The notes beneath the pieces are model-generated. The model had not been told where the DNA came from and searched no databases. It saw only the letters and a program-made list of their open reading frames with translations. The position numbers were made by a program, and so were the translations under genes. Source: Sphingomonadaceae bacterium (GTDB taxonomy: Bacteria > Pseudomonadota > Alphaproteobacteria > Sphingomonadales > Sphingomonadaceae). Taken from it: 45,086 bases of DNA. Numbering within the stretch: the stretch's first letter is position 1; every line of letters begins with the position of its first letter. This document shows positions 14,537-15,742 of this stretch, one piece after another. The stretch lies in NCBI GenBank assembly GCA_947477055.1, contig CANJSX010000003.1, forward strand, positions 1 through 45,086. Direction: 5' to 3'.

Positions 14537-14839
14537 ATGTTCCTCGTCGTCTTCCGCAACCGCAAACGCGCCGACATAAACGCCGCCGCCTATTCCGCCG
14601 ACGCCACGCGAATGGAAGCGCTGGCCCGCGCCCAGCCGGGCTTCCTCTCGTTCAAGAGCTATGCGGCGGAGGATGGCGAGGTGGTGGCGATTTCGGAATG
14701 GGGGGATGAGGCTTCGGCGCGGGAGTGGGGGCGTCATGCCGAACACGCCGAGGTGCAGGGGCGCGGGCGGGAGGAGTATTACGAGAGCTATACGTTGTTT
14801 ACGTGTGATGCGCCGCGGGTGCGGCGGTTTGGTGGATGA
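14537..14839 (+). CDS. Antibiotic biosynthesis monooxygenase (ABM)-like protein
   Basis: [55 protein letters not shown]. Confidence 0.75.
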
Positions 14840-14903
14840 TCAGCGACCATCGCCACGGTTGCAGCTTCGGTCGGAATCCGCATTCTTCGACACCACAAAT
14901 CCC

Positions 14904-14933
14904 GTCGCCCCGTGCTTGACACGAGGCCCCGCT
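14904..14933 (+). repeat. Left copy of a 30-bp inverted repeat flanking the GIY-YIG gene
   Basis: gtcgccccgtgcttgacacgaggccccgct; 29/30 identical to the reverse complement of 15278-15307. Confidence 0.9.
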
Positions 14934-14967
14934 TTTCTTCTGCGCCGCGCTGACCAATAATACAGCT

Positions 14968-15279
14968 ATGGAAAAGGGCGGCTGGGTCTACATCATGGCG
15001 GACCGCTACCGTGGCGGCATGTATGTCGGCGTGACCTCCGACCTGGTTCGCAGAGCACACCAGCACCGCGAGGGCACCGGTTCACGGCATGTTGCCGAAT
15101 ATGGCATAACGCGACTGGTCTATGCCGAGAGGCACGAGGAAATCGGTTGGGCCATCGCCCGCGAGAAGCTGGTCAAGAAATGGCGGCGTGAGTGGAAATT
15201 CGCATTGATCGAAGCGGACAATCCCGATTGGCGTGATCTCTGGGATGAATGGTTCCCTGCCGATGGGGCGCAAAGGTAG
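14968..15279 (+). CDS. GIY-YIG nuclease family protein
   Basis: MEKGGWVYIMADRYRGGMYVGVTSDLVRRAHQHREG...AIAREKLVKKWRREWKFALIEADNPDWRDLWDEW; WVYIM...MYVGVT is the GIY-YIG core. Confidence 0.92.
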   Translation: MEKGGWVYIMADRYRGGMYVGVTSDLVRRAHQHREGTGSRHVAEYGITRLVYAERHEEIGWAIAREKLVKKWRREWKFALIEADNPDWRDLWDEWFPADGAQR

Positions 15280-15307
15280 CGGGGCCCCGTGTCAAGCACG
15301 GGGCGAC
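15278..15307 (-). repeat. Right copy of the 30-bp inverted repeat; contains the perfect hairpin CCCCGTG-TCAAG-CACGGGG
   Basis: agcggggccccgtgtcaagcacggggcgac; begins inside the GIY-YIG stop codon. Confidence 0.9.
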
Positions 15308-15394
15308 GGCAGCTTTTCAGGTGCCGAGTGTTTTCGCGCGCCTTGCCCCCGGCCACGCTCGCGATATTGAGCCTCAACAGCCAAGGAGCCCAAT

Positions 15395-15742
15395 GTGACG
15401 ATCACCCTCTACGGCATCCCCAACTGCGACACCGTCAAGAAAGCCCGCGTCTGGCTCGACGGGCACGGGCTCCCATACACCTTCCATGACTACAAAAAGT
15501 CCGGCGCCGATGCAGACAAGATCGCCGACTGGATCGCCGCACTCGGCCTTGACAAGGTGCTCAACCGGGCCGGGACGACCTTCCGCAAGCTGCCCGAGGA
15601 GGTGACGCGCGATCTTGACACTGCGCGGGCAATCGCGCTGATGGTTGCCAATCCCTCTTGCATAAGGCGGCCGATTGTCGAACACCCTGCCGGGTTGCTG
15701 GTGGGGTTCAAGCCGGCGGAATGGGAAACTGCGCTGGTTTAG
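15395..15742 (+). CDS. ArsC/Spx-family thioredoxin-fold reductase (YffB-like), GTG start
   Basis: MTITLYGIPNCDTVKKARVWLDGHGLPYTFHDYKK...IRRPIVEHPAGLLVGF. Confidence 0.88.
   Translation: MTITLYGIPNCDTVKKARVWLDGHGLPYTFHDYKKSGADADKIADWIAALGLDKVLNRAGTTFRKLPEEVTRDLDTARAIALMVANPSCIRRPIVEHPAGLLVGFKPAEWETALV

Follow-up and report, generated by a model that had tools for sequence, protein, structure and literature searches.

The question raised by the window, a stretch of 45,086 nucleotides from a Sphingomonadaceae bacterium, is whether one small nuclease gene and the palindromic repeats on either side of it constitute a mobile element. A repeat search of the window recovered an inverted pair of 32 nt, 97% complementary, at 14902-14933 and 15278-15309, with 344 nt between the arms; a 20-mer of the repeat occurs at only two places in the window, which are the two arms (0.03 expected). 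The whole REP-GIY-YIG-REP unit lies on the plus strand at 14903-15308 and measures 406 bp from CGTC to GACG, its ends being the same as those of congeneric units. The left terminal REP (14902-14933, plus strand) carries the CGTC tag outermost, at 14903-14906, and forms a hairpin with one mismatch. The right terminal REP (15278-15309, minus strand) forms a perfect hairpin, CCCCGTG-CTTGA-CACGGGG, with the tag GACG outermost at 15305-15308. In both arms the CGTC motif is unpaired at one end of the hairpin, and the tail of the arms is CCCGCT. In single-stranded form the right arm has a folding energy of -12.1 kcal/mol (z -3.5), a value matched by 0 of 200 shuffles; that of the left arm, with its mismatch, is -5.9 kcal/mol (z -1.6).

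The nuclease gene occupies 14968-15279 (plus strand) and encodes 103 amino acids; its stop codon, TAG at 15277-15279, is overlapped by the right arm, which starts at 15278. A preliminary description of the locus had proposed a 30-bp inverted repeat around a small GIY-YIG ORF, arms that are stem-loops (the right perfect, the left with one mismatch) and a right repeat starting inside the stop codon. All of this was borne out, with coordinates right to within 2 bases. To the left of the insertion site lies abm, encoding an ABM monooxygenase (14537-14839, plus strand; Pfam PF03992), and to the right an arsC-like gene (15395-15742, plus strand; Pfam PF03960). In relatives, abm adjoins arsC.

The encoded protein matches the Pfam GIY-YIG family (PF01541) with 42 bits and an E-value of 1.2e-10. 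The domain spans residues 5-77 of 103 and is the sole Pfam match; no other domain was found. The catalytic Tyr/Tyr/Arg/Glu positions are conserved, the alignments of GIY-YIG proteins (A1 and A3) contain invariant Y, Y, R, H, E and K columns, and structure prediction returned a confident GIY-YIG model (pLDDT 95). The nearest solved relatives by sequence are the UPF0213 proteins BH0048 (1zg2) and EF2693 (1ywl), a distant match at E 2.6e-9, and the nearest by fold are again UPF0213 proteins (1zg2 and 1ywl). None of the NCBIfam profiles reached its cut-off with the window protein, the similarity to UPF0213 being this distant match. Neither an HUH motif nor the catalytic tyrosine of a Y1 transposase was found in the protein. 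Readings of the gene as part of a defence system or as a phage gene were set aside, since PADLOC gave no match and the PHROGs matches were weak and of unknown function.

The source genome contains five GIY-YIG matches, namely UvrC, one fragment and three small genes, each of the three being bracketed by a different CGTC-tagged palindrome pair. These small genes lie at aroC/abm-arsC (the window), between ruvB and ruvA (L002) and near a tyrosyl-tRNA synthetase-like gene (L001), and contigs C2 and C167 carry gene-less head-to-head pairs of a related REP. The position of the GIY-YIG/REP unit between ruvB and ruvA is kept across genera (L002 on G000:C16, L041, L043, L069, L070, L083 and L089). At L001 (G000:C46:5857 onward) and its relatives (L018-L049), a nuclease of the GAGCYTGTCGA clade often continues in frame into the downstream protein; these fusions have REP sequence in the linker and ORFs of 305-480 amino acids.

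The association extends far beyond this genome. With a bracketing repeat scored as present at an ungapped score of at least 14, such a repeat was found at 77 of 93 small GIY-YIG genes of the window's family, compared with 5 of 484 control positions of the same geometry at the same loci. A second set of 157 genes was drawn from named genomes and more widely from Pseudomonadota, and 117 of them were bracketed, compared with 4 of 877 control positions; the set includes genes from Nitrospira, Bacteroidetes, Ignavibacteriae, Chloroflexota, Patescibacteria, Pseudomonas and Caulobacter, and the search of the wider collection used a single protein as query. Pooled, 194 of 250 genes were bracketed, or 191 of 247 (77%) after removal of duplicates, so that about 23% of small GIY-YIG genes have no bracketing pair; the shifted control positions gave 9 of 1361. 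The tag is outermost in most bracketing arms, with GTCA or GTCG as the outer tag in 117 of 194 and the variant GTTC/GTTT in 24. Bracketing is not a general property of GIY-YIG genes, as inverted repeats were looked for around E. coli yhbQ and UvrC and none was found.

REPs are frequent in the genomes studied and often lie downstream of genes. It might therefore be supposed that GIY-YIG genes merely happen to stand in REP-rich intergenic space and that their hairpins are bidirectional terminators. This explanation is extremely improbable: among small control genes flanked on either side by 60 bp or more of intergenic DNA, only 5 of 220 were bracketed, which together with the shifted positions rules out chance; TTTT follows only 9 of 194 right arms; and REP class tracks nuclease clade.

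A copy in Neisseria gonorrhoeae is bracketed by GTCATTCCCGCG..CGGGAATC repeats, which we take to be dRS3-like. The preliminary description had mentioned ACTTGAT-type repeats adjoining GIY-YIG genes in related genomes, and these do exist (for example, L054, L128 and L135). Its proposal of a GIY-YIG-linked repeat family in Sphingomonadales was right as to the linkage and too narrow as to the taxon, since the family spans many phyla. Two plasmid-labelled records, NZ_CP119140.1 and NZ_AP026896.1 (2.2 and 4.9 Mb), look like whole chromosomes (Neisseria and Aeromonas). Tandem units or fragments with REPs between them were observed at L290 (S. meliloti pSymB), L214, L222 and L123. At a Pseudomonas locus (L182) the left REP and the GIY-YIG gene are separated, in one species, by an inserted segment of about 140 bp that eight relatives lack and that is possibly another small mobile element. 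This locus seemingly lacks a repeat because the later insertion pushed the left REP beyond the test window.

The repeats correspond to a described family. The CGTC REPs, one of two large superfamilies of bacterial palindromic repeats, have a CGTC tag, a stem of 8-9 bp, a loop of 4-5 and a short unpaired tail, mostly CCA; they are predominantly head-to-head dimers and occur mainly in Alphaproteobacteria, yet in several phyla (Di Nocera et al., 2013; PMC3733652). The arms of the window unit are the same repeats, as judged by tag, short stem, loop length and head-to-head dimers. Folding gave 8-bp stems and loops of 4-5 in the right window arm and three other REPs, and REPs of the classes studied here are mainly head-to-head dimers (REPINs). 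Within the GAACTTG class, represented by 71 distinct REPs, covariation is seen at two pairs of the stem (Watson-Crick fraction 0.94, compared with 0.54 and 0.47 expected). The tag and the CCA tail take no part in pairing and are conserved, the tag being kept in most of the 71. That pairing is retained rather than the letters themselves points to recognition of a folded strand.

When REP class, defined by loop and inner stem, was placed on the nuclease tree, 12 changes were required; shuffled labels required a mean of 48 and a minimum of 40, and labels shuffled only within two deep clades required 25 or more. Two REP classes were also counted in the same 101 genomes, grouped by nuclease type. 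The medians of REP1/REP2 were 6/0 in genomes with type 1 only, 3/73 in those with type 2 only and 0/0 in those with neither; in the contrast between single-nuclease groups, type 1 was weak alone (p 0.08) and type 2 strong (p 0.0005). Two or more REPs of a given type are carried by 20 of 77 genomes that lack the cognate nuclease, and these are read as leftovers after gene loss. The co-evolution of nuclease and REP could also reflect binding without cutting. The repeat is thus neither confined to the window nor independent of GIY-YIG genes, two points on which the initial proposal could have failed.

Evidence of movement comes from copies within genomes. A relative is present in 69 of 100 genomes of the genus, in which the window-type nuclease is multicopy. 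Congeneric window-type units measure 417-421 bp from tag to tag, the exceptions being the window's own 406 bp and a few diverged or damaged copies. In genomes with two or three such units, the copies lie at unrelated loci and are 98% (G394), 94-95% (G437), 89-90% (G030) or 85% (G456) identical; the range within genomes, 85-98%, compares with an average identity of 0.83 between genomes. In three of nine within-genome pairs the similarity breaks off no more than 1-2 bases from the tags. In the other six it runs past the tag on one or both sides, by up to 33-36 bp, so that the element may at times extend beyond the tags, or a repeated sequence may be favoured for insertion. Many window-type copies, as in the flanks of L373, L347, L349, L357, L378 and L379, have a second motif, about TGGTGGGAAGCGGAC, at a distance of 15-35 bp beyond one or both REPs; this motif is perhaps a favoured target or else an outlying portion of the element. 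At L374 (G437:C11:795600-798900) the core unit seems to be inverted with respect to the shared outer flanks, as a flip at the inverted REPs would produce.

Gene-less derivatives are found in the same genomes. Solo head-to-head pairs are spaced 95-256 bp apart, and gene-carrying pairs 387-391. Four of six solo REPINs inspected (L396, L410, L397 and L420) hold both the 5' and the 3' end of the gene with the middle deleted; in the two short ones, L395 and L422, a gene remnant was looked for and none was clear. L380 is a 285-bp derivative with intact ends, and on S. meliloti pSymB a REPIN with a truncated gene adjoins an intact unit.

Sites lacking the element were also recovered. In most congeneric relatives compared, abm and arsC stand about 14 bp apart with neither unit nor repeat; the gene standing there without its repeats, a pattern that would have spoken against the proposed unit, was not the one found, as both are absent together. 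Two congeners differ at three sites, where one has REPINs and the other does not, with diverged intergenic flanks; at L337 the empty site has no REPIN. Because the relatives are too diverged at these places, neither a duplicated target site nor an exact empty site could be recovered.

These observations bear on a homing mechanism, in which the nuclease would cut a REP or REPIN elsewhere and double-strand-break repair would copy the gene by gene conversion into pre-existing REPINs only, in the manner of the free-standing phage homing endonucleases that have a GIY-YIG domain. In favour of this, the GIY-YIG fold is typical of homing enzymes, some copies have 16-36 bp in common outside the REPs, and the apparent inversion at L374 is what recombination at REPs would be expected to produce. 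Against this, empty sites in relatives hold no REPIN at all (abm-arsC and L337), which favours transposition into new sites over homing into existing REPINs; fixed-length deletion derivatives are themselves dispersed; and several pairs of copies have nothing in common beyond the tags. Homing is therefore considered unlikely.

Other, ancient units are syntenic across genera and vertically inherited at fixed places, such as ruvB-ruvA. Such long retention, together with the annotation of the related E. coli protein YhbQ as a nuclease of the DNA damage response, would suit a domesticated host enzyme that processes REP cruciforms or hairpins for genome maintenance, with the nearby REPs as its binding sites and the REPs being moved by some other enzyme. 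This reading is very unlikely: near-identical multicopy units within a genome, and derivatives that retain both ends of the gene, are hallmarks of a mobile element, and the CGTC REPs have been linked to no other enzyme (PMC3733652). The minimal mobile unit originally suggested is upheld by the multicopy 417-421 bp units and their deletion derivatives, yet many units are vertically inherited as well.

Comparison of sequences has demonstrated tag-defined ends, multiple copies at different loci, co-evolution of nuclease and REP, and gene-less dimers formed by internal deletion. On this comparative basis it is highly probable that the unit is an autonomous mobile element of minimal size, about 420 bp, which encodes no protein other than a GIY-YIG nuclease predicted to cut its ends, and whose MITE-like offspring are the REPINs. 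The nuclease would recognize its cognate REP as a folded hairpin plus CGTC tag, as suggested by the covarying stem bases and the unpaired, conserved tag. It would then nick or cut at the ends of the element, acting in cis on the full unit and in trans on REPINs. Known GIY-YIG enzymes hydrolyse DNA and form no covalent intermediate, for which reason excision or copying, followed by insertion, would be finished by host replication and repair. Internal deletion of the full unit gives rise to gene-less head-to-head dimers, and in some lineages one unit is kept for long at a fixed place while its REPINs disperse, as with RAYT genes. The RAYT-like logic on a GIY-YIG fold that had been put forward for this locus gains support from the bracketing, the co-evolution and the deletion derivatives.

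The element probably explains the origin of the CGTC REPs. We also think it likely that it represents a novel class of transposable element, about 420 bp long, with a GIY-YIG nuclease as sole protein that would act on hairpin ends by none of the known transposase chemistries, distributed across phyla and the source of CGTC REPs including the dRS3-like repeats of Neisseria. Mobile elements are usually classified by their enzyme, and on that basis the present one, once proven biochemically, would count as a new class. If so, GIY-YIG nucleases would be added to the known drivers of DNA transposition, here within an element shorter than the smallest insertion sequences, which measure roughly 0.7 kb. 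The CGTC REPs gain a candidate dedicated enzyme, and head-to-head REP dimers would be explained as deletion derivatives; both claims are testable. Many genes whose sole annotation is 'GIY-YIG nuclease family protein' also receive a candidate function, and small nucleases with matched candidate hairpin targets become available for study. The full texts in PMC, a collection that excludes preprints and most subscription papers, yielded no paper joining GIY-YIG with REP, RAYT, REPIN or CGTC, and a 2006 paper on GIY-YIG phylogenomics has no mention of COG2827, UPF0213, YhbQ or inverted repeats.

Among known systems, the UPF0213 proteins (BH0048, EF2693 and E. coli YhbQ) are the nearest relatives with solved structures, but yhbQ is unbracketed and mobility is not known for UPF0213. 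The GIY-YIG homing endonucleases (I-TevI and the free-standing Seg types) belong to the same superfamily and likewise drive their own spread. They differ from the present element, which has no extra DNA-binding domain, occupies dispersed rather than allelic sites, and has palindromic ends and deletion derivatives. MITEs and small insertion sequences also combine an autonomous copy with internally deleted copies that have the same inverted ends; here, however, there is no DDE, HUH, serine or tyrosine transposase, the length is about 420 bp and no target duplication was seen. The CGTC REPs were described without an associated transposase gene and are said to "apparently lack a dedicated transposase" (Di Nocera et al., 2013; PMC3733652), whereas in the present case they form the termini of a GIY-YIG element. 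The closest parallel is with the RAYT or TnpA-REP systems (REPtrons). RAYTs are HUH (Y1) enzymes with GTAG-tagged REPs, in contrast to the GIY-YIG protein and CGTC tag found here. Both systems have one endonuclease gene bracketed by inverted, cognate and dispersed REPs, head-to-head dimers scattered through the genome, co-evolution of nuclease and REP, and frequent vertical retention of the gene.
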